DNA from: Gammaproteobacteria bacterium
Lineage (GTDB): Bacteria > Pseudomonadota > Gammaproteobacteria > Steroidobacterales > Steroidobacteraceae
Direction of reading: 5' to 3'
Assembly: GCA_005878095.1 (NCBI GenBank)
Contig: VBNH01000048.1
Location: 1 to 64,000 of the forward strand
DNA length: 64,000 nt
In this document: piece after piece, positions 47,242 to 64,000 of the stretch
Numbering within the stretch: position 1 is the first letter of the stretch
How the letters are laid out: each line of letters opens with the position of its first letter
Program-made: the position numbers and the translations under genes
The notes under the pieces: model-generated
Seen by the model: the letters and a program-made list of their open reading frames with translations, nothing else
What the model was told of the DNA's origin: nothing
Database searches by the model: none

Positions 47242-48780
47242 CTACCGGGAGGGCAGGCTGTCCGCGCTCCAGCCCCCGCCCAGCGCCTTGAGCAGCCCCA
47301 CACTGGCGGCGAGCGAGCGGTTGGTGATGTCGCGCCAGGCGCGCTCCGCGCTCAGGGAAGCGTTCTGCGCGGACACCACGTTCAGATAATCCACCGTGCC
47401 CGCCTTGTACTGGTTCTGTGCGATCGTGAGCGTCTCGGCGGCCGCATCCGCGGCGGCGCGCTCCGCGACCGACTCCCTGGCGAGCACCGCGAGCGTCGCG
47501 AGATTGTCTTCCACGTCCTGAAAGGCGCTGAGCACCGTCTGCCGGTAAGTCGCCACGCTCTGATCGTAGCTCGCGATCGCGGCGCGCACCTGGTAGCGGC
47601 GCGCGCCGAAATCGACGAGCGCGCCGGCGAGATCCGGGCCGAGCGACCAGAAGCGATTCGGCGCCTCGATGAGCTTCGAGAAGCCCCCGCTCGCGTACCC
47701 CCCGGAGGCCCCGAGCGACAGGGTAGGGAACCATGCGGCCTGCGCCACGCCGATCTGGGCGTTGGCGGCTGCGGCGCGCCGTTCCGCCGCGGCGATGTCC
47801 GGGCGGCGCTCGAGGAGCTGCGAGGGAAGCGACAGCGGGATCGCGGGGATCGCGGGCGTCTGATCCTTGCGCGGAATCGCGAGCGAGGCCGGCGGCTGGC
47901 CGATCAGCACCGCGATCGCGTGCTCGAGAGTCGCGCGGGTGATCCCCAGGTCGAGCCACTGGGCGCGGGCAGCCTCGAGCTGGGTCTGCGCCTGCGTGAC
48001 GTCCGAGCGTTGCGCCACGCCCGCCTGGTAGCGGTTCTGCGTGACCTCGAGCGCCTTCTCGTAAGCGTCCAGCGAGCGCTCGAGCAGACCCACGTCGAGA
48101 TCGGTGACGCGCAGCTGAAAGTAGCTCTGCGCGAGGATCGCCTGCTCCGACAGCAGCATCGCGGCGAGATCTGCGGCGCTCGCCTGCGCCGACTCGCGGT
48201 TGGATTCGGCGAGGCGGCGGATGCGGCCCCAGACATCGAGCTCCCAGCTCGCCGCGAGGCTCAGGCGATCCTGGGTCTTGACGCCCGTGCCCGCCGCCGC
48301 GGCACTGGTGGGGGTGGTTCCGCCGCCGACCGTGAGGGCATTCTGGCTGCGCGTCGAGGAGACATCCGCGGTGATGGTGGGGAAGTAGCCCGAGCGCGCG
48401 CTGCCGAGCAGAGCGAGCGCCTGCTCATATCGGGCCGCGGCCAGGAGCACGTTCTGATTGGATAGCTGCACCTGGCGCTCGAGGGCATCCAGGTCAGGGT
48501 CGCCGTAGAGGTGCCACCAGTCGCCCCGCGGCGTGAGATCCTGCGGCTCGGCCGGCTTCCAGTCCGTGCCCTCCTTGTAAGCCGGCGGAACCTCGACGCT
48601 CGGACGATGGTAGACGGGCCCGACCGGGAGGTACTGGCAGCCGCCGGTGGCCCCGAGGGCGAGCAGCGGCAGTACGCCCCATGCAGCGCGCCTCAGCGCA
48701 GTGCGTCGGAGCAGGAGCCGCCATGCAGCGCGCCGCCGCACGCTGCACCGAGCGGGGAGCGGCGGGGTGGCGGGCCTCAC
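47242..48780 (-). CDS. RND efflux outer membrane lipoprotein, NodT family (start uncertain)
   Basis: [29 protein letters not shown] lipobox; [40 protein letters not shown]. Confidence 0.88.
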
Positions 48781-51700
48781 GCGGCCCCCTGCGGGGCGCC
48801 GTGGGCCCTGCCGGGCTCGCCCGCGCGGCGCTCACCGAGCGGGTCCGAGAAGCGCCGCAGGCGGGATTTCGCCCACAGCCTGAAGCGGTCGAGGTACAGG
48901 TACACCACCGGAGTCGTGTACAGAGTCAACAACTGGCTGAGGAGCAGGCCCCCCACGACCGCGATGCCGAGCGGGCGGCGCAGCTCCGCCCCCTCACCGA
49001 ACCCGATCGCAAGCGGCAGCGCACCGAACATCGCCGCCATGGTGGTCATGAGTATCGGCCGCAGCCGCAGCAGGCACGCCTGGTAGATGGCCTCGCGCGA
49101 GCTCAACTCCCGCTCGCGCTCGATCTGCAGGGCGAAGTCGATCATCATGATGGCGTTCTTCTTGACGATACCGATCAGCAGGATCACGCCGATGAGCGCG
49201 ATGATCGTGAAGTCGGTGCCGGTGGCGAGCAGCGCCAGGAGTGCCCCGACGCCCGCCGAGGGAAGCGTGGAGAGGATCGTCAAGGGGTGCACCAGGCTCT
49301 CGTAGAGTATCCCCAGCACCAGGTACACCGCGACCAGCGCCGAGACGATGAACAGCGGCTGATGGGAGAGCGCGGCCTGGAACGCCTTGGCGGTTCCCTG
49401 GAAGCTGCCGCGCACGGTGATGGGCGCCCCGAGCCGGGCGAAGCCGGCGTCGATGGCTCGCGTCGCCTGCGACAGCGACACACCGGGCCGCAGATTGAAG
49501 GAGACCGTCGAGGCCGCCGACAGCCCGTGATGATTGACGGCGAGCGGGGTCGAGGTCATCTCGTAGTGCGAGAAGTCGCTCAGGGGTACGCGCTGGCCCG
49601 CCGAGCCCGTGACCGGGCTGCCGGCGCCGCCTCCGGCTGTCGCGGCGATCGCACCCCCGCTGGAGGCCACAGCGCCGGCAGGCGCCGCGGCGCCCGGGGC
49701 GGCCCTCGCCCCCGCTGCACCCGTGCCGGCAGCTCCGCTCACCGCGCTGCGCGTCACGTACACCGAGCGCAGGATCTGCGGGCTCTGCCAGAACTCGGGG
49801 GCCGCCTCCATGACCACGTGGTACTGATTCAGCGGATGGTAGATGGTCGACACCTGGCGCTGGCCGAACAGGTCATTCAGCGTGGCGTCGATCCCGGACT
49901 GGTTCAGCCCGAGGCGCGCGACCGCGTCGTGGTCGATGACGAGGCTCGTCTGCAGTCCCTTGTCCTGGGCGTCGGTGTTGACGTCCGCCAGCTCGGGGAG
50001 ATCCGACATCATGCGCCGCACCCGCGGCTCCCAGGCACGCAGATCGGTGGTGGTGTCGGCCTGCACCGTGTACTGATACTGCGCGCCGGCGGAGCGGCCC
50101 CCGACGCGGATGTCCTGCACCGGCTGCAGGAACAGGTTGGCGCCCGGCTCGTGCCCGAGCTTGGCGCGCAGGCGCGCGATCACCGCATCCGCGCTTATCC
50201 CGCGCTGGGCGAGCGGCTTGAGCGAGATGAACATGCGGCCGCTGTTGCGCTGGCCGCCGCCGGTGAATCCCACCACCGTCGCGACCGCCGGATCGTGCAT
50301 CACGACGCCGACGAAGTAGCGCAGCTTCTCGCGCATCGCCTGGAAGGAGATCGCCTGATCGGCCTGGATCTGCCCCGTCATCAGCCCCGAATCCTGCTGC
50401 GGGAAGAAGCCCTTGGGCACCTGGATGTAGAGGTACACGTTGAGCGCCACGGTGAGCGCCAGGATCAGCATCACGGTGGGACCGTTGGCGAGCGCCCAGT
50501 GGAGCGAGCGGCGATAGCCGTCCTGCAGGGCGTTGAAGGCGCGCTCGCTCAGCCGGTAGAGCCGCCCGTGCGCTCGCGCGCAGTCGCGCTCCGCGGTGAG
50601 CCGCGAGCACATCATCGGGGTGGTGGTGAGGGACACCAGGAGCGACACCAGGATCGCGGCCGAGAGCGTGATCGCGAACTCCTGGAACAGCCGTCCGACC
50701 ACCCCGCCCATCAGGAGGATCGGGATGAACACCGCGATCAGCGACAGGCTCATCGACACCACCGTGAAGCCCACCTCGCGCGAGCCCTCGAGCGCCGCCG
50801 CGAGGCGCGGCATGCCCGCTTCCAGGTGGCGCGAGACGTTCTCCAGCACCACCACCGCGTCGTCGACCACGAAGCCGGTGGCGATGGTGAGCGCCATGAG
50901 CGAGAGGTTGTCGAGGCTGAACCCGGCCAGATACATGACCCCGAAGGTGCCGATGAGGGACACCGGCACCGCGACCAGGGGCAGCATCGCGGCGCGCGCA
51001 CTGCGCAGGAACATGAACACCGACAGCACCACCAGCGCCACCGAGATCACCAGCGCCCGCTCGACGTCGTGGAGCGACGCGCGGATGGTTGGCGTGCGGT
51101 CCATGTAGACATTGAGCGCGATGCTCGCCGGGATGGCCGCGCGCAGGTGCGGCAGGAGCGCGCGCACCCGATCGACCGTCTCGATGATGTTGGCGCCGGG
51201 CTCGCGGAACAGGATAAGCGTGACGGCCGGGTCGCCGTTGGCGAGTCCGTCGTTGCGCAGGTCCTGCACCGAGTCGCTCACCTGCGCGATGTCGCCGAGG
51301 CGCACCGCCGCACCGGCGTGATAGCCGACGATGAGCGGGATGTACTCGCCCGCGGTCATCGCCTGGTCGTTGGCGAGGATCTGCCAGCGCCGCTCGCCGT
51401 TCTCGAGCGCGCCCTTGGGACGGTTGGCGTTGGTGGTGGCGATCGCCACGCGCACCGCCTCGGGGTTGATGCCGTAGCCGTTCATCGCGGGGAGGTTGAG
51501 CTCCACGCGCACCGCCGGCAGTGAGCTGCCGCCGACCGTCACGTCGCCGATGCCCTGCAACTGCAGCAGTTTCTGGGCCAGCACGGTGGACGCCCAGTCG
51601 TACATCTGCCCGCGGGTGAGCGCCTTGGAGGTGAGCCCGAGGATCATGATGGGCGCGTCCGCGGGGTTCACCTTGTGGTAGGTGGGATTGCTCGGCAGCC

Positions 51701-52064
51701 CGCTCGGAAGCAACGCGCGCGCGGCGTTGATCGCCGCCTGCACGTCGCGCGCCGCACCGTCGATGTCGCGGCTGAGGTCGAACTGCAGCGTGATGTGCGT
51801 CGAGCCGAGCGCGCTCGAGGAGGTCATCTCGGTGACCGCGGCGATGCGCCCGAGCGAGCGCTCGAGCGGCGCCGCCACCGTCGCCGCCATGGTCTCGGGG
51901 CTGGCTCCGGGGAGTCCGGCGTTCACCGAGATAGTCGGAAAGTCCACCTGTGGGAGCGGCGCCACCGGCAGGTGGATGAAGGCCGCGACGCCGGCGAGCA
52001 CCACCCCGAGGGTGAGGAGGGTCGTCGCGACCGGACGCTCGATGAAGGGACGCGACAGGTTCAT
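48777..52064 (-). CDS. RND efflux permease, MdtC-like
   Basis: [60 protein letters not shown]; AcrB/MdtBC signatures; overlaps next RND gene region only by gene order. Confidence 0.92.
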
Positions 52065-52077
52065 GGGCGCAGCGCGC

Positions 52078-55000
52078 TCAACTGCCCTCGGTGGCCGGCG
52101 CACCCTCACCGGTCGCCGCCGCTCCGTGCCGCGCGCGCCAGCTCCCGAAGCGTCGCGCCAGTCGGTCGAAGTACAGGTAGATCACCGGTGTCGTGAACAA
52201 GGTCAGCACCTGGCTCACCGCGAGTCCTCCGACCATGGCGAGGCCGAGCGGGCGGCGCAGCTCCGAGCCCATGCCGGTGGCGAGCATCAGCGGCAGCGCG
52301 CTGAGCATCGCCGCGAGGGTGGTCATGAGGATCGGCCGCAGCCGCAGCAGCGCCGCCTGGTAGATCGCCTCGCGCGGCGGCTTGCCCGCGCCGCGCTCGG
52401 CCTGCAGCGCGAAGTCGATCATCATGATCGCGTTTTTCTTCACGATGCCGATGAGCAGGATGATGCCGATGATGGCCACGACCGACAGATCCTGTCCGGC
52501 GAGCATCAGCGCGAGCAGCGCCCCGACCCCCGCCGACGGCAGCGTCGAGAGGATCGTCAGCGGGTGGATGTAGCTCTCGTAGAGGACGCCGAGCACGATG
52601 TACACCGTCACGATCGCCGCCAGGATCAGCCACACCGTGCTCGAGAGGGTGCCCTGGAAGGCGAGCGCCGCGCCCTGGAAGGAAAGCTGCACGCTCGCGG
52701 GGATCTCAAGTTCCTGCTGCACGGCCTTGATGGCGCTCACGGCGCCGCCGAGCGAGGCCCCGGGCGCGAGGTTGAAGGAGATGGTAGCGGCGGGGAACTG
52801 GCCGAGGTGATTGATCGCGAGCGGGGAGGTTCCCTGGGAGATGCGCGCCACGCTCGCGAGCGGGATCTCGTTGCCGTTCACCGCCGCGACGTACAGGCCC
52901 GCCAGCGGGCCCGGGCCCTGCCGATCCTCGGGCCTGAGCTCGAGCACCACGCGATAGATGTTGGATTGCGTGAAGATCGTCGACACCAGGCGCTGCCCGA
53001 AGGCGTCGTACAGCGCGTTGTCGATGGCCGCGGGCGTGACGCCGAGGCGTCCGGCCGCGTCGCGGTCGATCTCCACGTAGGTCGCGAGCCCCTGATCCTG
53101 CAGGTCGCTGGCCACGTCCGCGAGCTGCGGCAGCGCCTGCATGCGCGCCACCAGCCTCTTGACCCACACCGCGAGTTCGCTCATGTCCGGGTCCTCGGCC
53201 GACAGCGCATAGAGGGTGCGGCTGACGCGCGCGTCGATGGTCAGATCCTGCACCGGCTGCATGAACACCGTGATGCCGCCGACTGCGGCGAGTTGCGGCT
53301 GCAGGCGGCGGATGACGCCCGAGGCATCGAGGCTGCGCTCGCTCTTCGGCACCAGACTGATGAGCAGCCGCCCGCTGTTGAGCGTGGTGTTGACGCCGTC
53401 GACGCCGATGAAGGAGGAGACGTTCTGAACCGCGGGGTCCTTCAGCAGCGCCTGGGCGAGGGCCTGCTGCCGCTCGGCCATGGCCGCGAAGGAGACCGAC
53501 TGCGGCGCCTCGGTGATGCCCTGGATGAGGCCGGTGTCCTGCGGCGGGAAGAATCCCTTGGGAACGTACACGTAGAGGAGCACGGTGAGGACCAGGGTGC
53601 CGAGGGCCACCAGCAGCGTCATGCGCTGACGGTCGAGCACCCAGGCGAGGGCGCGCGCGTAGTGCGCGGCGAGGCTCTCGAAGGCGGCCCCGGCGATGCG
53701 CAGCGCGCGGCGCTCGTTCTGCGGGCGCAGCGGCTCGAGCAGGCGTGCGCACATCATGGGCGTGAAGGTGAGCGACACCACCGCCGAGATCAGGATCGCC
53801 ACCGCGAGGGTGATGGCGAACTCGCGGAACAGCCGCCCGACGACATCGCCCATGAACAGCAGCGGAATCAGCACCGCGATCAGCGACACGGTGAGGCTGA
53901 TGATGGTGAAGCCGATCTGCTGCGAGCCTTCGAGCGCCGCCTTGAGGCGCGGCGTGCCCTGCTCGACGTGGCGCGAGATGTTCTCGATCATCACGATCGC
54001 ATCGTCCACCACGAAGCCGGTGGCGATGGTGAGCGCCATGAGCGTCAGGTTGTTGATGGAGAAGCCGGCGAGGTACATGAGGCCGAAGGTCCCGACCAGC
54101 GACAGCGGCACCGCGATGCTCGGGATCAGCGTGGCCAGCGGGCTGCGCAGGAAGAAGAAGATCACCAGCACCACCAGCACCACCGCCAGCAGCAGCTCGA
54201 ACTGCACATCCGCGATCGAGGCGCGGATGCCGGTGGTGCGATCGGTGAGGAGCGACACGCTGATCGAGGCGGGAAGGCTCGCCTCGAGCTGCGGCAGTAT
54301 CGCCTTGACGCGATCCACCGTCTGGATGACGTTCGCGCCCGGCTGGCGCTGGATGTTGACGATGATCGCGGGAAAGGGCCGCGGCCGCTCCCGCTCGGCC
54401 GCCCAGGCGGCGAGCTTCACGTTCTCGGATTCCTCGACCACGGCGGCGACGTCCGCCACGCGCAGCGGCGCGCCGTTCCTGTACAGGAGCACGATGTTGC
54501 GGTAGTCCTCCGCCGAGCGCAGCTGGTCGTTGGCGTCGATGGTCGAGGCGCGCAGCGGGCCGTCGAAGCTTCCCTTTGCCTGGTTGACGTTGGCGTTGGC
54601 GATCGCCGTGCGCACGTCCTCGAGCGCCAGTCCGTGCGCTGCGAGCGCCACCGGGTCGACCTGGATGCGGATCGCGGGCCGCTGGCCGCCGCCGAGGCTC
54701 ACCAGGCCCACCCCCGGCGCCTCGGAGAGCTTGGGGGCGAGGCGCGTGTCGACCAGGTCCTCGACCTTGGTGAGCGGCAGCGTCGCGGAGCTCACCGCGA
54801 GGGTGAGGATGGGCGCATCCGCGGGATTGACCTTGCTGTAGACCGGCGGCATCGGCAGATCGGTCGGCAGGAAGGAGGTGGCGGCGTTGATCGCGGCCTG
54901 CACTTCCTGCTCGGCGGTATCGAGCGAGAGGGCGAGTGAGAACTGCAGCGTGATCACCGAGGCGCCGCCGGAGCTCGAGGAGGTCATCTGCGCCAGTCCC

Positions 55001-55224
55001 GGCATCTGCCCGAACTGCCGCTCGAGGGGCGCGGTGATCGAGGAGGTCGTCACATCGGGGCTGGCGCCCGGATACAGCGTCGTCACCTGGATGGTCGGGT
55101 AGTCGACCTCGGGGAGCGCCGAGACCGAGAGGGCCCGGTAGCCGAGGAGGCCCGCGAGCAGAATCGACAGCATGAGCAGCCACGTCGCGACGGGCCGCTC
55201 GATGAAGATCGCTGAAGGGTTCAC
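52078..55224 (-). CDS. RND efflux permease, MdtB-like
   Basis: [59 protein letters not shown]; 1048 aa. Confidence 0.92.
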
Positions 55225-56525
55225 GAGCTCATCCGGCTCGCCACGGCGGGCAGCGGCGCCGGCGGGGCGCCGCTCGAGGCGGTGCCGCGGCGGTGCTGGC
55301 GCTGCCCGGGGGTCTGGGGCGTCCCCGGAGCCGCAGCGCCCCGGGTGTTGTCGGCGATCAGGGCGATCTGCGCTCCGTCGCGCAGCTTGTCGAGTCCGTC
55401 TATGACGACCTTTTCCCCGGGTTTGACGCCGTCCTTCACCGAGACCAGCTCCCCGCTCGCCGGCCCGAGGGTCATCTTGCGAAGGCTCACCGTGTTATCC
55501 GCATTGACGACGTACACGAAGGTGCCCGGGGCTCCGCGCTGCACCGCGGCGCTCGGCACCAGCGTGGCGCCGGAGACCGTGTCGAGGCGCAGCCTCGCGG
55601 TCACGAACTGCGCCGGGAAGAGCGCATCGTCGGTGTTGTCGAAGAGCGCCTTGAGCTTGATGGTCCCGGTCGTGGTGTCGATCTGGTTGTCGACGGCGGC
55701 GAGCTTGCCGGAGGCGATCACCTTGCCGTCGCGGTCGAGCGCCTGGACCTCGAGCGCATCACCGCGCCTCCAGTGCGGATAGATCAGCGCGAGATGCTCG
55801 GAGGGCACCGCGAACACCACGTAGATCGGGTGCGTCTGGGTAAGCACCACGAGCCCGTTGGTATCGGAGGCATGAACCATGTTGCCGGGATCGACCTGGC
55901 GCAGGCCCACGCGCCCGGCGAACGGCGCGGTGACACGCGTGAACGTCAGTTGCAGCCGCGCGTTCTCGACCGCAGCCTTGTCGGCGCGCACCGCGCCTTC
56001 GAGCTGCTGCACGGTGAAGCGCTGCGCATCGACCGTCTGGCGCGCGACGGAATCCTTCGCCAAGAGGCCCGTGTAGCGGTCAAGGTCCACACGCGCGCCG
56101 GCGAGCTGCGCCTGATCCTTCGCCAGCTGCCCCTCGGCCTGGTTGAGCGCCGCCTGGAACGTGCTCGGGTCGATCTGTGCGAGCAGGGCCCCGGCTTTCA
56201 CCCGCTGTCCTTCGTGAAACGGCACCTTGAGCAGCGGCCCGTCGACCCGGCTGTGGATGGTCGCGGTGTTGAGCGCGGTCGCGGTCCCGAGCGCATCGAC
56301 GGTCACATCGACACTGCCGGTGGAGGCGGCCACGGCCCGCACCGGGATCGGCCGGCCGGCATCGGCGCCGCGCCCGCCCGCGGACTGGCTGCCGGGCTTC
56401 ATGGCCCAGGCGATCACGGCCACCAGCACCGCCGCGGCCACCGCCGTGAAGATGAGGCGCAGGCGGCGCGCCTCGCGCGCCTGCCCTTGGGCGGTGGTGT
56501 CACGCGGGACCGGATCGGGGATCAT
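55221..56525 (-). CDS. RND efflux periplasmic adaptor, MdtA-like
   Basis: [42 protein letters not shown]...[41 protein letters not shown]. Confidence 0.9.
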
Positions 56526-56690
56526 CGGCGCCTCTCGTCTGACTCCCCGCACGATGGCGCAACTGCACCTTCCGCCGCAAGCGCGGCCCGCGAGGCTAAA
56601 AAACGGCGGCGGCGCGCAGGAGCACCCCGCCGCCCCCAGGAGGAGAACGACACGTTGGCACAGGTGTTGGCTTGGTGGTGTAAGCAACTG

Positions 56691-56710
56691 GCAAAGAAAT
56701 GCAAAGAAAT
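56691..56710. promoter_or_regulatory. Candidate response-regulator box: perfect tandem 10-bp repeat GCAAAGAAAT x2
   Basis: 56691-56700 and 56701-56710 identical; between mdtA-like and OmpR-family RR genes. Confidence 0.55.
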
Positions 56711-56766
56711 CTGTGTTTCCGTGCCGCCGGGGCCGGGAAACCCTCGGAGCGTGTATCGTCACGGTC

Positions 56767-57504
56767 ATGAATCCGGCGGACGTCCCGAGCGAGTCAAAGC
56801 CGACGCTCCTCATCGTCGATGACGATCATGAGCTGTGCGCGATGCTGGCGGAGTACCTCGCCCCGGAGGGGTTCCTCACGCTCACCGCGGGCACCGGGCC
56901 CGCGGGACTGGAACAGCTCGGGCGCGCGGCGGTGGACCTCGTGGTGCTGGACGTGATGCTGCCGGAGCTCTCGGGCTTCGAAGTGCTGCGCCGCATCCGC
57001 GCCGTCAGCCGTGTGCCGGTCATCATGCTCACCGCCCGGGGCGAGGAGGTCGATCGCGTGGTGGGACTGGAGATGGGTGCCGACGACTACCTCGCCAAAC
57101 CCTTCAGCCCGCGCGAACTGGTGGCGCGCATCCGGGCGGTGTTGCGGCGCATGCCGGGGGAGGGCCAGAGCGCGAGCGGACTCATCCTGTGGGGGCCGCT
57201 GCGTCTGGACCTGCGCGCGCGCCGCGCCGACATCGCTGATCGTGACCTGGAGCTCACGTCCGCGGAGCTGCGGATTCTGGAGCTGCTGGTGCGCGCGGAT
57301 ACGCGCACCGTGACGCGCGATGAGCTCATGACCCAGGCACTCGGGCGCCGGCTGCTGCCGACCGATCGCAGCCTCGACACGCACGTGAGCAACCTGCGCC
57401 GCAAGCTCATGAAGCACACCGACCGCCTCGCGCTGCTGAGCGTGCGCGGCTCAGGCTACGCGCTCACCCTCGCGCCCGCGCGCGCACCGGCGTCGCAGGG
57501 TTAG
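56767..57504 (+). CDS. OmpR/PhoB-family response regulator
   Basis: TLLIVDDDHELCAMLAEYLAPEG, VVLDVMLPELSGFEVLRRIR, KPFSPRELVARIRAVLRR, winged-helix C-term TDRSLDTHVSNLRRKL. Confidence 0.93.
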   Translation: MNPADVPSESKPTLLIVDDDHELCAMLAEYLAPEGFLTLTAGTGPAGLEQLGRAAVDLVVLDVMLPELSGFEVLRRIRAVSRVPVIMLTARGEEVDRVVGLEMGADDYLAKPFSPRELVARIRAVLRRMPGEGQSASGLILWGPLRLDLRARRADIADRDLELTSAELRILELLVRADTRTVTRDELMTQALGRRLLPTDRSLDTHVSNLRRKLMKHTDRLALLSVRGSGYALTLAPARAPASQG

Positions 57505-57508
57505 GCGC

Positions 57509-58933
57509 ATGCACTCGCTCTACTGGCGGATCTTTCTCGCCTTCTGGGTGGCGCTGGCCCTGATCCTGGTGGGCACGGTCACGGTTGCGGTCAACGCCAC
57601 CGCACACCGCACCGACCGTCCGTGGGTACAGCGCGGCCAGCTGTACGCGCAGGCGGCGCGCGCCTTTGAGTCCGGCGGGCCCGCAGCGCTGCGCAGCTGG
57701 CTGCAAGCGTTGCCCGCGGAACCCTTGGGCCGCACCTTCGTGGTCGAGCCCGCAGGCCGGGAGCTGCTCGGGCGGCCGCTGCCGCCATCCCTGAGAGGCT
57801 CGAGCGCTACGGCTGCGGCTCCCGGCGGCGGCACGCAGGCGGGCAGCTCCGCGGGCGCCATTGCACCCAGGGGCGGGGCGCTGGTGCTGGTGGCCCCCGG
57901 CGGCAGCACCTATCACGTGGTCATCGGCCCGGTGCACGACAGACCGCACCTGTTCGGCGAGCTGGAGCTGCCGGGTGTGCCGCTGACGCTGCTGGCGATC
58001 GCCCTCGTGGTGAGCGGCGTGGTGTGTTACTTCCTCGCCCGCTACCTCGCCGCTCCCGTCGACCGGCTGCGGCTCGCGACCCGCCGGCTCGCCGCGGGCG
58101 ATCTCAACGTGCGGGTGCTGCCGGCGCTCAAGGGGCGACAGGATGATCTCGGGCTCCTCGCGGCCGACCTCGACACCATGGCCGAGCGGCTGCGTCTGCT
58201 CCTCGAAGCGAAACAGCAGCTGCTGCGGGACGTCTCGCACGAGCTGCGCTCGCCGCTCGCGCGACTGCAACTTGCGCTGTCGCTCGCGAGCCGTGAGGAC
58301 GGTACGGTGCAGTGCCACCTCGCGCGCATCGCCCGCGAGGCGGAGCGGCTCGAAGCTCTCATTGCGCGCACGCTGAAGCTCGTGCGCCTCGAGCGTCCGG
58401 CGCAACACATCGACCAGGCGCCCGTCGACGTGGGCGACGTGCTGCGCACGATCGCCGCGGATGTGGCCATCGAGGCGCATGCGCAAGGGTGTCTCGTGCA
58501 GGTGCAGGCGCAGGGTCCGTTGCCGATGTCGGGTGATCCGGAGCTGCTGCGCAGCGCCTTCGAGAACGTGATCCGCAATGCGGTGCGTTACAGTCCGGCG
58601 GATGCCATGGTCGGGATCACGGCTCATCGCCTGGCGGGCGAGGGGCAGCAGGGGGGCCTGGTCGAGGTCGTCATCCGCGATCAGGGGCCCGGCGTGCCAC
58701 ACAAGGACCTCGGGCTCATTTTCGAGCCCTTCTACCGCGTGGATGCGGCGCGCGGACACGGCAGCGCCGGTGGCGAGGGCCTGGGGCTCGCGATCGCCGC
58801 CCGCGCGGTGGCGCTGCACGGCGGGCACATCACGGCGCGCAACGGGAAGGGCGGTGGGCTCGCGGTGACGATCACCCTGCCAGCGATGGACCGCGCGCGA
58901 TCAGCGGGACGGACGGCGGCGGCGACGGCTTAG
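57509..58933 (+). CDS. Sensor histidine kinase (CpxA-like)
   Basis: HAMP region, RDVSHELRSPLARLQLALSLA (H-box), FENVIRNAVRYSP (N-box), GEGLGLAIAARAVALHGG (G-box). Confidence 0.93.
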   Translation: MHSLYWRIFLAFWVALALILVGTVTVAVNATAHRTDRPWVQRGQLYAQAARAFESGGPAALRSWLQALPAEPLGRTFVVEPAGRELLGRPLPPSLRGSSATAAAPGGGTQAGSSAGAIAPRGGALVLVAPGGSTYHVVIGPVHDRPHLFGELELPGVPLTLLAIALVVSGVVCYFLARYLAAPVDRLRLATRRLAAGDLNVRVLPALKGRQDDLGLLAADLDTMAERLRLLLEAKQQLLRDVSHELRSPLARLQLALSLASREDGTVQCHLARIAREAERLEALIARTLKLVRLERPAQHIDQAPVDVGDVLRTIAADVAIEAHAQGCLVQVQAQGPLPMSGDPELLRSAFENVIRNAVRYSPADAMVGITAHRLAGEGQQGGLVEVVIRDQGPGVPHKDLGLIFEPFYRVDAARGHGSAGGEGLGLAIAARAVALHGGHITARNGKGGGLAVTITLPAMDRARSAGRTAAATA

Positions 58934-59199
58934 GGGAGCAGGCGCGTGCCGGCCAGGAGCGTCACGAAAGCGAGCGCGGGAGGTTGCGGCTCGGGCACAG
59001 GTGTCGCATCCCCGCTGGCGTCCCCGGTGTCATCAGTCGTGCCGTCATCCTGGTTGGGATGGGGGTTGACGAGGTTGGCGCCGGCATCGAAAGACCCGGT
59101 GCCGCGAGCCGGCTGAGCCGGCACCGGCGGGCTCAGGCAGAGGACCGCTATCGCGAGGCAGGCTGCGAAAGCGATCAGGCCGAGCTTGTTCTTGTTCAT
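58930..59199 (-). CDS. Small secreted/exported protein with VPEP-type C-terminus, unknown function
   Basis: MNKNKLGLIAFAACLAIAVLCLSPPVPAQ signal peptide; Asp/Thr-rich middle; C-term PVPEPQPPALAFVTLLAGTRLLP. Confidence 0.5.
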   Translation of the reverse strand: MNKNKLGLIAFAACLAIAVLCLSPPVPAQPARGTGSFDAGANLVNPHPNQDDGTTDDTGDASGDATPVPEPQPPALAFVTLLAGTRLLP

Positions 59200-59601
59200 C
59201 GTGCCACCGTGCCAAGGCTCAAGATGCTGCGGTGCAAGCATCGTGCCGCCGCCGGTCCCACGATGGTTTGCCAACGACTTGCACGGCGTCCGTGACTTAA
59301 TGAGCCGCGGCGCGAGCTCGAGGGTGTAAATTCCGGCGACTTTTCGGCGCCGCCGCGATCGGTACGCGCGCTCGCCAACACCGGGGGACCGGAGTTGGTG
59401 CGCTGCCGGCGCGTCACGGGTGCCAGTTGCCGCAGTCGTGAACGGCATCACGCCGTGCCGTCGCCGGTTCTTGTCACTATCGCAGTGCGGAAAGCGCGTG
59501 TGTCTCGCAGTGCGCAGGCGCGGCATCCTCCCGCGTCGATCCGTGCCGCGTGATGCGGTCAAATAACATAACCAAGGCGCGTACCGCGTTTGATATCGCC
59601 T

Positions 59602-60723
59602 ATGAGTTTGGATTTCGTCTCAATACTGGTTGCCGCCCGTTGGGGGTCGGTCGGCCTGATGGTCATCGTGCTGCTCATGATGACCTATATGCTCTGTCTG
59701 CGTGCGGTACTGCTCATGAGGGAGCGCCGCTACGCCAAGCTGTCCGCGCGGTGGACTCCGATACTGCTCGAGGGCGGTGCGAGGAATCCCAAGCCCCTGC
59801 CGACCGTTCCTCCCGGCGAACGGTTCCTGCTGCTGATACTGTGGAACACGCTGCGCGAGGGGAACGAGCAGGATGCGGAAATCTGCCACTGGATGGGCCG
59901 CGTCGCCGCCGTCACGAAAATCGACTGCCTGGCCCGCCGGCTCCTGCGCCGCCGCGGCGTGCGCAAGAAGCTCCTGGGCCTGGTGACGCTCGGCCAGCTG
60001 CGCGACAGGCCCGAGTGGCCCCGCTTGTGCCAGATCGCACAATCCGGGCACCCGTTGCTGTCGCTCGCCGCGACGCAGGCGATCGCGCGCATCGATCCGG
60101 CGGCAGCCACCGAGACGGTCGTGTCACTCGTCGTCAGACACCTCAACTGGCCGGCGGCCAAGGTCGCGGGCATCCTCGAGGACATCGGTCCGGAGCGGGT
60201 GTCCGAGCCCTTGGCGCGCGCCCTTCTGCGGGCTCCCGAGTCGCACCGGCCCGGGCTCATTCCTTTCCTTGCGGTATGTAACTACTCCACCGCGCTGCCG
60301 ACCGTGCGGCAGATCCTGCATGAGCCTCACGTCGATGAAGTCATCGCCTCCTGCCTGCACGTGATCGGCAAGTTCGGCGACCGTCAGGATCTGCCGCTGC
60401 TGTACCGCTACCTGACCCATCCGCGGTGGCACGTGCGCGCGGTCGCTGCCGGTTGTGTGGGGAAGATGGGCCGACGGGCGGATCAGGAGAAGCTGGCGCC
60501 GTTGCTCGCCGACCGAGAGTGGTGGGTGCGCTACCGGGCTGCGCAGGCCATCGTCGGCCTCTCGCCGCGGGACGATCAGCGCCTGCGCGACATCCAGAGC
60601 GCCCTCAGCGATCGCTACGCCAGAGACATCCTGACCCAGGCCATCGCCGAAGGAGCGCGTCCCGGGCAGTCCGGCACGGACCTGTCGCCGACGGGCCGGA
60701 TGCGGATCGGAGCCGGCCGATGA
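59602..60723 (+). CDS. Membrane-anchored HEAT-repeat-like protein
   Basis: N-terminal TM; repeats such as HPRWHVRAVAAGCVGKMGRRADQEKLAPLLADREWWVRYRAAQAI. Confidence 0.75.
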   Translation: MSLDFVSILVAARWGSVGLMVIVLLMMTYMLCLRAVLLMRERRYAKLSARWTPILLEGGARNPKPLPTVPPGERFLLLILWNTLREGNEQDAEICHWMGRVAAVTKIDCLARRLLRRRGVRKKLLGLVTLGQLRDRPEWPRLCQIAQSGHPLLSLAATQAIARIDPAAATETVVSLVVRHLNWPAAKVAGILEDIGPERVSEPLARALLRAPESHRPGLIPFLAVCNYSTALPTVRQILHEPHVDEVIASCLHVIGKFGDRQDLPLLYRYLTHPRWHVRAVAAGCVGKMGRRADQEKLAPLLADREWWVRYRAAQAIVGLSPRDDQRLRDIQSALSDRYARDILTQAIAEGARPGQSGTDLSPTGRMRIGAGR

Positions 60724-62111
60724 TGTCGTTCTTTCTCGCTGCACAGTGGTTCTTTCTGCTGTACTTCCTGGCGCTGAATGCCGTGTATGCGATGTTGATC
60801 TTCCGCGCGCTCGGCGGCGTCGCACGCTACATGCAGAGCCGCGACGTGGCCGGGCTCCCGCACCTGCTCGGCGGCTTCGCACCGCCCGTCACCATCGTGG
60901 TGCCCGCGCGCAACGAGGAGGCCAACATCCTGCGAACGCTGCACTCGCTGCAGCAACATTACCCGGAGTACGAGATCGTCGTGGTGAACGACGGCTCGAC
61001 CGACCGCACTCTGGAAGTGCTCACCGCCGCCTACTCCCTCAAGCCCTTTCCCGAGGCCTACCGCGCACGCCTCAAGACCCGGCCGGTGCGCGCTGTCTAT
61101 CAGTCCACGGTCGATCCACGCCTGCGGGTCATCGACAAGGAACAGGGCGGGCGGGGCGATGCCGTCAACGCCGGGGTCAACATCGCGCATTACCCCTGGG
61201 TCTGCCGGGTGGATGCCGATTCGGTCCTGCAGCGGGACAGTCTGATGCTGATCGTCGCGCCGCTCCTCGAGGACCCGACGGTGGTCGCCTGCGGTGGCAC
61301 GATTCGCGTCGCCAACGGCTGCAAATCGCAGGACGGTCTTTTCGTCGAAGCCGATCTGCCCAAGGGGCCGCTGGTCCTTTTTCAGGTCGTCGAATACCTG
61401 CGCGCTTTCCTGTACGGAAGGATGGGCTGGTCGCCGATGAACGCCCATCTCATCATTTCGGGCGCTTTCGGCATCTATCACAAGGAGACGTTCGTTGCGG
61501 CGGGCGGCTACCGCTCAGACACCGTCGGCGAGGACATGGAGCTGATCGTCAGACTCCACCGGACACTATCGGCGCAGCGCAGGAGCTACCGCATCACCTT
61601 CGTGCCCGAGCCGATCTGCTGGTCGACGGTGCCGGACGACATCGGCACGCTCCGCAGGCAGCGCATCCGATGGCAGGTCGGCCTGGCGGAATCACTGGCG
61701 ATGAATCGCGGCCTGATGTTCCACAAGGAAGGATCCTTCGCGGGGTGGTTCGCTTACCCCTTCACGGTGTTCTTCGAGTGGCTCGGGCCGGTGGTCGAGA
61801 CCTGTGGTTATCTCTTCGTCATCATAGGCTTCGCTCTCGGCATCGTTTCGCTTTCGGTCTTCATCACCTTCATGCTGCTGGCCGCGGGCTTCGGCGTATT
61901 GCTCTCGACCTGCGCGCTGCTGCTCGAGGAGATCTCGTTTCGTCTTTACAAGAGGCCGCGCCACATCCTCGTGCTGTTTGCGATCGCGGTGCTGGAGAAT
62001 TTCGGATACCGGCAGCTCAATACTCTCTGGAGGATGGCGGCGGTGTTCCAGCATCTGCACCGGGGGGCGCGCGCACGACTCGCCAGGCGCAAGCAGGAGT
62101 GTCCCGCCTGA
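60720..62111 (+). CDS. Family 2 processive-type glycosyltransferase (PgaC/cellulose synthase-like)
   Basis: APPVTIVVPARNEEANILRTLHSL, VVVNDGSTDRT, CRVDADSVL, QRIRWQVG (QxxRW), TM segments at both ends. Confidence 0.9.
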   Translation: MMSFFLAAQWFFLLYFLALNAVYAMLIFRALGGVARYMQSRDVAGLPHLLGGFAPPVTIVVPARNEEANILRTLHSLQQHYPEYEIVVVNDGSTDRTLEVLTAAYSLKPFPEAYRARLKTRPVRAVYQSTVDPRLRVIDKEQGGRGDAVNAGVNIAHYPWVCRVDADSVLQRDSLMLIVAPLLEDPTVVACGGTIRVANGCKSQDGLFVEADLPKGPLVLFQVVEYLRAFLYGRMGWSPMNAHLIISGAFGIYHKETFVAAGGYRSDTVGEDMELIVRLHRTLSAQRRSYRITFVPEPICWSTVPDDIGTLRRQRIRWQVGLAESLAMNRGLMFHKEGSFAGWFAYPFTVFFEWLGPVVETCGYLFVIIGFALGIVSLSVFITFMLLAAGFGVLLSTCALLLEEISFRLYKRPRHILVLFAIAVLENFGYRQLNTLWRMAAVFQHLHRGARARLARRKQECPA

Positions 62112-63472
62112 TGAGCCGCGCACTCCCGGTAGCCCTGGCTGCATGGCTGGCCCTCGCCGGCCTCACGGGTGTCACCGCGGCATGGGCCGCAGCTGCCGAC
62201 GCCGAGCTGACCGCCGGCAACGAGGCGCGCGATCGCGGCGATTACGCGGCGGCTATCGGCCACTATCGCCTCGCCCTCGCCTCCGACCCGCAATCCTACG
62301 AAGTGAAATTCCAGCTGGCGCGGCTCCTGTCCTACACGCGGCAGCGCGAGGAGGCCATACGGCTCTACACCGAGCTCCTGTCGACGAGACCTGCCAACTC
62401 GGATCTGTTGCTGGCGCGCGGACGAACCTATGCCTGGGAAGGACGCTGGTCGGAGTCCGAGGCCGATCTGACGGCAGTGTCCACGCTCCTGCCGGAGTAC
62501 GGTGACGCGTGGGCGGCTTTGGGCGATCTCTATCTGTGGAGCGACCGCCCCGCGGGTGCGATCCAGGCCTACACCCGTTGGGTATCTGTCCAGCCGAACG
62601 AGCCCGGCGCGTATCTCGCCCGATCCAGGGCTTACCGGTCATCGGCAGACCGAACGGCGGCGCGAGCCGATCTGGAAAAGGCGCGCGCGAGCGGCGCGAC
62701 CGACGCGGAGGTGGACCCGCTCATCGCCTCGCTCGAGCAGCGCCCTTCGCCTGCGGCCACGCAGCCCGGAGGCCTTCGCTGGCTGGCACACGTCGGCGAC
62801 ACCTACAGCAATTTCTCCGCCGGCAGGTCTGCCTGGAGCGAATATGACGCCAGCGTTCGCGGGTATTTCCCCCGCGGCTCGCTCGCCGTGGAGAGTCTCG
62901 GGGCGCAGCGCTTCTCGCTGACCGACCACGCCTTCGCGCTGGATGGCTATACGGACGCATGGTCCAGGGCGTATCTCAACCTGCGCTACCAGTACTCGCC
63001 GCATGCGACTCTCTATCCGCAGCAGGCATATCGTGCCGAGCTCTTTCAGGGTAGCGGGCGAGGGTGGGAGCCTTCCTTGAGCTACGACCACATGAGCTTC
63101 ACCCATGCCGACGTCGACATGTACGGCGTGGGACTCGGCAAGTACGTCGGCAACTGGTACCTGCGCTGGCGCACCCTCTTCATCCCCTCCACGACGGGAC
63201 TCGGGGTCTCTCACCGCGCAGTCGCACGCTATTACTTTTCCGGAAACGCAGACGACTACGTCGAGCTGAACGGGGGCCTCAGCCACGGCAACGAGCTTCT
63301 GCCCCATAGCGTACTCGTCAACGTCACGAGCTCCTGGACCGCCGGCGCGCAGATTCAGAAATTCTTCACACCCCGATGGGGCATCTGGCTCACCGGCAGC
63401 GTCAACGACGAGCATACGTCCAGCCCCTTCGTCGAGCGGGACGCCTCGCTGACCCTGCTATTCCGGTGGTGA
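62111..63472 (+). CDS. TPR-repeat + YaiO-like outer membrane beta-barrel protein
   Basis: Signal peptide, TPRs (AAIGHYRLALASDPQSYEVKFQLARLLSYTRQREEAIRLYTELL), then barrel-like C-term ending ...DASLTLLFRW. Confidence 0.83.
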   Translation: MSRALPVALAAWLALAGLTGVTAAWAAAADAELTAGNEARDRGDYAAAIGHYRLALASDPQSYEVKFQLARLLSYTRQREEAIRLYTELLSTRPANSDLLLARGRTYAWEGRWSESEADLTAVSTLLPEYGDAWAALGDLYLWSDRPAGAIQAYTRWVSVQPNEPGAYLARSRAYRSSADRTAARADLEKARASGATDAEVDPLIASLEQRPSPAATQPGGLRWLAHVGDTYSNFSAGRSAWSEYDASVRGYFPRGSLAVESLGAQRFSLTDHAFALDGYTDAWSRAYLNLRYQYSPHATLYPQQAYRAELFQGSGRGWEPSLSYDHMSFTHADVDMYGVGLGKYVGNWYLRWRTLFIPSTTGLGVSHRAVARYYFSGNADDYVELNGGLSHGNELLPHSVLVNVTSSWTAGAQIQKFFTPRWGIWLTGSVNDEHTSSPFVERDASLTLLFRW

Positions 63473-63490
63473 GTTGCTGACCGCGCCTCG

Positions 63491-64000
63491 ATGGTCAAGC
63501 TGACCGCCCAAGCCCCCGGCACGCCGTGGCCGGTCCGGCTCGGCGAGCGCCTGACCGCCTTCGGGAATCTGTCGCTGGCACTGCTGCTCGCCCTGCTGAC
63601 GGGGCGGCTGATGGAGCTGTCGGGCGTCCTTATGACGACCGAGGTTCCGCGCGATGTGGGCATGGTGATCGTCGCGGCGCTCCGGTCGGACCTGCTGCTG
63701 TTCCTCGAACTGCTCGTCTTCCTCCTGCCGCTGTTCCTGGCGTTCCGGATGATCCTCCGCGGAAAGAACGCGGATGTCCGGGTCTACGGCGGCTTGGGCT
63801 CGCTGGTGCTGATCGGTGCCGCTGCGCTCTCGAGCTATTTCCTTCTCTCCCGGGTACCGCTCGGGAGCGACCTGTTCGGCTATTCCTTGAGCGACATTCT
63901 GACGACGGCTCGCGGGGGCTATCACTTCTCTGCGCTGTCTGTCGCAACGCTGCTGCTCCCGCTCGCGGTGTTCTGGGTCGCGCTGCGCATCTTCAACAGG
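63491..64000 (+). CDS. Partial CDS (runs off window end): multi-TM membrane protein, possibly N-terminus of sulfatase/phosphoethanolamine-transferase-like enzyme
   Basis: Open frame from ATG 63491 to window end: MVKLTAQAPGTPWPVRLGERLTAFGNLSLALLLALLTGRLMELSGVLMTTEVPRDVGMVIVAALRSDLLLFLELLVFLLPLF... Confidence 0.6.
   Translation, partial: MVKLTAQAPGTPWPVRLGERLTAFGNLSLALLLALLTGRLMELSGVLMTTEVPRDVGMVIVAALRSDLLLFLELLVFLLPLFLAFRMILRGKNADVRVYGGLGSLVLIGAAALSSYFLLSRVPLGSDLFGYSLSDILTTARGGYHFSALSVATLLLPLAVFWVALRIFNR

Follow-up and report, generated by a model that had tools for sequence, protein, structure and literature searches.

Gram-negative synthase-dependent systems for exopolysaccharide secretion are defined by a synthase, a cyclic di-GMP-binding domain or a co-polymerase, periplasmic modifiers, and TPRs with an outer-membrane pore (PMC7112194). 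A 2020 survey counted five polymers made by such systems (PMC7112194), and the Nfr system was added later (PMC8669469, PMC8669472). Among their synthases, PgaC requires the small membrane protein PgaD, and cyclic di-GMP stabilises the PgaC-PgaD interaction (PMC7112194). We analysed a 64,000-nucleotide stretch of DNA (the window; positions 1 to 64,000, forward strand, of contig VBNH01000048.1, assembly GCA_005878095.1) from a gammaproteobacterium of the family Steroidobacteraceae. Its last part, 59602-64000, encodes a HEAT-repeat protein (HEAT), a family 2 glycosyltransferase (GT2), a protein joining TPRs to a YaiO-type barrel, and a sulfatase-fold enzyme (gene 4). We consider it probable that this operon is a synthase-dependent exopolysaccharide system of an undescribed type. 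In such a system, HEAT would be a co-subunit standing in for PgaD or PilZ, a receiver protein would gate synthesis in most lineages, and the polymer would be phospho-decorated in the window's layout.

The four genes lie on one strand, overlapping or closely spaced (Table 1). The ATG of the GT2 gene overlaps the HEAT stop codon by 4 bases (ATGA), and the ATG of the TPR-YaiO gene has one base in common with the stop codon of the GT2 gene. An earlier first-pass annotation of this DNA had listed these genes with their coordinates and stop/start overlaps, and we found all of them as listed. Performing the HMM search that it had proposed for the four proteins, we assigned them to the HEAT_2, Glycos_transf_2, YaiO/TPR and Sulfatase families. 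In NCBIfam, the YaiO barrel domain was the sole result for the window proteins that exceeded its own cut-off (117.8 versus 32 bits). Neither PilZ nor MshEN was found by Pfam in the four operon proteins.

Table 1. Genes of the operon at the end of the window.
Feature	Position	Strand	Start and length	Pfam match
HEAT-repeat protein	59602-60723	+	ATG start, 373 aa	HEAT_2, E 3.7e-15
GT2 membrane synthase	60720-62111	+	463 aa	Glycos_transf_2, E 1.8e-25
TPR plus YaiO-type barrel protein	62111-63472	+	453 aa	YaiO, 3.4e-23, and several TPR models
Sulfatase/LtaS-OpgB-type gene 4, N-terminal membrane part	63491..64000, continuing past the window	+		Sulfatase, E 1.9e-16 (longer open reading frame)

We used an alignment of four GT2 sequences to scan 85,462 species genomes. 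The scan returned at least 558 relatives, of which the best 80 were kept with their flanks. Together with the window locus and three loci of the same order, these made 84 loci, 83 of them distinct, as one Woeseiaceae locus entered twice (L015 and L075 are the same contig). A HEAT homologue was present in 81 of the 84. In 75 loci it lay immediately upstream of the GT2 gene on the same strand, as judged from the cluster of offsets and the open reading frame coordinates; offsets near -150 were read as a constant shift, the GT2 profile having included an upstream extension. Six Nitrospira-type loci had HEAT kilobases off or on the opposite strand beside the YaiO gene, and the three HEAT-less loci were all of the Nitrospira type, on short or cut contigs. 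Independently, we sampled 397 genomes evenly across the phylum. Fourteen of these had a GT2 at E <= 1e-60, and HEAT stood beside it in 12 of the 13 that remained when the window's own genome was left out. No HEAT was found in eight weakly similar GT2 loci and three wider clusters, nor in the four E. coli MG1655 regions (yai, nfr, pga and bcs). This last result agrees with the first-pass view that a HEAT partner is no standard part of the Pga, Nfr and Yai systems.

Because the GT2 alone selected the loci, the conservation of HEAT is not circular; and because the same arrangement recurs across dozens of genera, it is not a product of chance. Absence of HEAT beside the GT2 in relatives had been named beforehand as the observation that would speak against a new system, and both samples gave the opposite. 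The pair persists while the YaiO, receiver, sulfatase and glycosidase-like genes vary, including in Bacillota loci without YaiO. Its hosts include Stutzerimonas, Massilia, Stenotrophomonas, Thermomonas, Rhodanobacter, Methylobacter and Nitrospira. The Nitrospira-type split was seen in L027, L030, L040, L082, L092 and L096, where the GT2 gene is on one strand, the YaiO and glycosidase-like genes are on the other, and HEAT is several kilobases away. Separately, one genome bin titled Nitrosospira (L065) may be mislabelled, since its GT2 and gene order fall inside the Nitrospira group.

Comparing gene order, we distinguished two layouts. The majority layout runs receiver, YaiO, HEAT, GT2, with the receiver present in 55 loci. 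The second runs HEAT, GT2, YaiO, sulfatase, and is found in 15 of the 84 loci, the window among them. Usually, the receiver is a response regulator with a single domain, in which the acid pair, the phospho-acceptor Asp and the Lys are conserved. No locus among the 84 carried a receiver and a sulfatase together. YaiO was over threshold in 68 loci. Two Bacillota loci have the HEAT-GT2 pair without a barrel, which is expected if the barrel is the outer-membrane exporter. In one Bacillota locus (L063:1487-2434), the receiver encoded upstream of the HEAT-GT2 pair carries a fused DivIVA-like domain, hinting that synthesis there could be tied to the cell pole or division site.

A glycosidase-like secreted protein, whose best solved relative is 10yv (a putative GH97 according to its depositors), is encoded in 35 loci. 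Its gene follows the sulfatase gene in all 14 sulfatase loci with a long enough flank. In the eight YaiO-less Massilia/Telluria loci it comes after the GT2 gene, and in loci of the Nitrospira type it is found between the YaiO and GT2 genes. We looked for such a gene to place beside the window operon and found none in its own genome, where the one weak match sits in an unrelated GT2 cluster. Among long loci, simple motif patterns, used without a background rate, picked out GGDEF genes in 14 of 46 of the receiver type and 0 of 13 of the sulfatase type, and kinase genes in 26 of 46 and 0 of 13, respectively.

The GT2 carries the full motif set of processive synthases together with transmembrane segments, as an inner-membrane synthase should. 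In the window, the motifs are D91, D165-A-D167, G270-E271-D272 and Q314-R-I-R317-W318. All 83 GT2s compared have D91, the two Asp residues of DxD, Glu and Asp in GED, and Gln and Arg in QxxRW; 82 of them have the Trp. The first-pass annotation had called the protein PgaC-like, with QxxRW and flanking transmembrane segments. The motif and segments were borne out, and the likeness to PgaC proved broad only: PgaC_IcaA is the best NCBIfam model, scoring 116 bits where the cut-off is 422, and identity to E. coli PgaC is 27%. Identity was 19% to BcsA and 23% over 288 amino acids to YaiP; with NfrB, only 52 residues aligned (E 0.027), and the CelA model gave 36.9 bits against a cut-off of 699. The window GT2 falls far below each of the NCBIfam cut-offs for PgaC, BcsA and NodC. 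A second GT2 cluster, on contig C105 of the same genome (L018:4587-9093), encodes a GT2 29% identical to that of the window, along with an HlyD-type protein and a TolC-like OEP protein, whose frame also bears a weak glycosidase-like match.

We modelled HEAT with AlphaFold2 using 69 sequences (mean pLDDT 92.9). The model has a helix over residues 2-57, followed by a solenoid to residue 351. A transmembrane scan placed a segment at about residues 19-37, inside the N-terminal helix, with basic residues after it. Because of these basic residues, the positive-inside rule would put the solenoid probably in the cytoplasm. Across the alignment of 69 homologues, conservation is strongest in the last repeats (D304 and W307-W308-V309-R310), which makes them a candidate contact surface.

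Among the defined parts of a synthase-dependent system, the GT2 corresponds to the synthase, the sulfatase-fold enzyme is a putative periplasmic modifier in the window's layout, as the glycosidase-like protein may be in related loci, and the TPRs with their barrel correspond to the periplasmic TPRs and the pore in the outer membrane. For the one part left, the co-polymerase or regulator, HEAT is the natural candidate. A variant of this reading, overlapping with it in our confidence, keeps the exopolysaccharide operon and makes HEAT a signalling adaptor that recruits the receiver or other regulators to the membrane, outside the polymerising machine. HEAT solenoids are typical binding scaffolds, and the receiver is encoded in the same operon in the 55 loci given above. 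However, also in the sulfatase layout, in which no receiver was found, HEAT stays beside the GT2, and its membrane helix and tight gene coupling suggest a direct partner. We regard the adaptor role as rather doubtful.

The export protein begins with a signal-like segment, and its barrel part matches the YaiO domain TIGR04390 (E 6.9e-34). With the Pfam TPR models, this upholds the earlier description of TPRs fused to a YaiO-like barrel in one protein. A structure prediction of the barrel had been suggested as a check. Our AlphaFold2 model from 41 sequences (pLDDT 92.9, pTM 0.66) shows TPR helices and 14 strands. In the PDB, it matches best two entries for E. coli BcsC, a known exporter of polysaccharide. 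The window barrel is 41-46% identical to those of the sulfatase lineage and 13-26% to those of other loci.

Gene 4 encodes five to six transmembrane segments followed by the Sulfatase domain. The first-pass annotation had seen a multi-transmembrane protein; this held, and its identity can now be refined to a sulfatase-fold enzyme of the LtaS/OpgB type. Following the sequence past 64000, as had been advised, we found that the gene exceeds the window, with the catalytic domain encoded beyond 64000, that contig C155 ends at 64946, and that the remainder is on contig C173, where a search of the same genome with the sulfatase of a relative located it. The two contig ends overlap by 193 bases with 1 mismatch, and we infer that C155 and C173 adjoin. 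As this overlap joins both halves, the completed product would have about 672 amino acids and a normal stop. The catalytic-type motifs GVEG, QGRT, GDHR and RYHVP align with those of OpgB and clade relatives, giving a membrane-anchored sulfatase fold with the Glu, Thr and Asp-His motifs. For a full-length relative, the closest solved structures are VP1736 and a lipoteichoic acid primase. Gene 4 matches the Sulfatase, OpgB and LtaS models and has no match to the BcsG model; the scores for the OpgB/LtaS equivalogs stay low (27 versus 574 bits for the C-terminally cut protein, 33 versus 970 for the full-length relative). We read gene 4 as a putative phosphoglycerol or phosphoethanolamine transferase because it belongs to the LtaS/OpgB-type family.

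This kinship raised the question of whether the GT2 instead makes a glycolipid or a short membrane-derived oligosaccharide, to which an LtaS/OpgB-like enzyme would add phosphoglycerol, as in lipoteichoic acid or osmoregulated periplasmic glucans, the barrel serving otherwise. The kind of enzyme encoded by gene 4 speaks for this. On the other hand, the sulfatase is confined to 15 of the 84 loci, whereas nearly all have HEAT-GT2, the GT2 bears QxxRW and DxD like processive synthases, and the TPR-barrel resembles BcsC. We consider such a product unlikely.

The synthase-dependent exopolysaccharide system that we favour could work as follows. The GT2 would polymerise a sugar nucleotide in the cytoplasm and drive the chain across the inner membrane. 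HEAT would bind the GT2 as a co-polymerase or regulatory subunit, taking the role of PgaD or of the PilZ domain of BcsA; PgaC-PgaD coupling is a precedent for such a pair (PMC7112194). In most lineages, the stand-alone receiver encoded upstream, being phosphorylatable, would dock on the HEAT solenoid and gate synthesis; CheY3-P acting on an exopolysaccharide machinery offers a precedent for receiver control (PMC7666153). In the window's layout, which has no receiver, the sulfatase-fold enzyme would decorate the periplasmic polymer with a phospho-substituent derived from phospholipid, with phosphoglycerol or phosphoethanolamine the most likely. The TPRs would then lead the polymer to the YaiO-type barrel and to the outside. 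Several points weigh against this scheme. The HEAT-GT2 and HEAT-receiver contacts are deduced from gene pairing. The best solved matches of the HEAT model are designed alphaReps and PP2A scaffold subunits, which are general binding scaffolds, and no known synthase subunit is among its structural likenesses. No YaiO gene was detected beside the GT2 in the Massilia and Bacillota loci. Control by cyclic di-GMP is also possible because of the GGDEF motifs in 14 of the 46 long receiver-type loci.

Extending the scheme, we tentatively propose a multi-phylum synthase family whose GT2 might need a HEAT subunit and be switched by a phosphorylated receiver instead of cyclic di-GMP, the window having swapped the receiver for a phospho-decorating enzyme. 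A HEAT-partnered synthase would be a further synthase-dependent system, and a receiver acting via the HEAT solenoid would mean that a synthase could be gated by protein phosphorylation, beyond cyclic di-GMP alone. As the operon occurs across Stutzerimonas, Massilia, Nitrospira and others, many environmental biofilm formers may make an as yet unnamed polymer. Carriers such as Stutzerimonas stutzeri and Massilia alkalitolerans are in culture, so the idea is directly testable.

We also asked how the window's operon is related to the others. Of 58 genomes from the genus of the window, 3 carry the HEAT gene, a patchy distribution that suggests transfer or frequent loss. The GT2 tree, with weak support, puts the window close to receiver-type sequences from Gammaproteobacteria. 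By gene 4, barrel and gene order it belongs with the sulfatase lineage; owing to this disagreement, the operon may be a mosaic. Constraining the window GT2 with the Xanthomonadales sulfatase lineage was neither supported nor rejected (AU p 0.293). The E. coli placement in this tree is unusable because the E. coli branches are very long.

Directly after the operon, C173 (L128) carries an XrtA/PEP-CTERM exopolysaccharide cluster with a deacetylase (TIGR03006), an export protein (TIGR03027), a chain-length determinant (TIGR03007) and glycosyltransferases. Two exopolysaccharide systems of differing type thus seem to lie side by side at C155/C173. The absence of a deacetylase or accessory gene noted in the first pass holds inside the window and fails on this next contig. 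Upstream of the HEAT gene, 47242-58933 holds RND efflux genes (two inner-membrane pumps, an adaptor and an outer-membrane factor) accompanied by a divergent regulator of the OmpR type and a histidine kinase, a set that a second species of the genus (L111) has at the same location. At 58930-59562 on the minus strand is a gene for a small secreted protein with a VPEP-containing, PEP-CTERM-like tail lacking the usual basic end. Two further species of this genus (L110 and L111) also have it beside HEAT, and its product had no NCBIfam match.

Finally, we compared the operon with the described systems. In the full text of 5.39 million open-access papers, which leaves subscription journals mostly outside, no description was found, among the papers listed, of HEAT paired with YaiO, a glycosyltransferase, exopolysaccharide, a polysaccharide synthase or synthase-dependent secretion. 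Together with the GT2 scores, this gave no match to a named operon, the other observation that the first pass had named as speaking against a new system. XagABCD was tried as a name and set aside by description only. The xagABCD operon of Xanthomonas and the stalk cluster of iron oxidisers are likewise biofilm exopolysaccharide operons with a GT2, the former in Xanthomonadales, where loci of the sulfatase layout are frequent (PMC3609779, PMC4643136), but their described partner set differs and has no HEAT; in the iron-oxidiser cluster, xagB is paired with a BcsB-like gene (PMC4643136). E. coli PgaABCD, which makes poly-N-acetylglucosamine, is similar in combining a GT2 of broad homology with a small partner in the membrane (PgaD) and an exporter of the TPR-barrel type. 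The window differs in having a HEAT solenoid for PgaD and a YaiO-type 14-strand barrel, and neither PgaD nor the PgaB deacetylase is encoded beside its GT2. NfrBA-YbcH, of the N4 glycan receptor, has a GT2 with DxD, TED-type and QxxRW motifs and a TPR/outer-membrane pore in an overlapping operon (PMC8669469). However, the Nfr GT2 has a C-terminal MshEN domain, whereas the window GT2 ends after its transmembrane segments and is accompanied by a HEAT gene. A divergent Pga or Nfr system, for which the broad layout of GT2 and TPR-barrel and the best NCBIfam model could be cited, is very improbable given the low score and identity to PgaC, the scant alignment to NfrB, the absence of PgaB, PgaD and MshEN from the operon, and the E. 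coli loci without HEAT. The E. coli yaiP/yaiO/yaiS region has a YaiO-type exporter barrel with a GT2 encoded nearby; it has no HEAT gene, and a putative deacetylase, yaiS, takes the place of the sulfatase. In the cellulose (Bcs) system, BcsC is the best match of the window barrel model, and BcsG, which adds phosphoethanolamine to cellulose, is a conceptual analogue of gene 4; the window operon, however, has no BcsB and no PilZ, and its GT2 is far from BcsA. The phosphoglycerol transferases OpgB and LtaS share with gene 4 the N-terminal transmembrane segments, the sulfatase-fold domain and matching motifs, but gene 4 is encoded with a polysaccharide synthase and scores far under their equivalog cut-offs at full length. 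In summary, synthase-dependent polymer secretion is itself of an already known kind, and the new element is most likely the HEAT partner.

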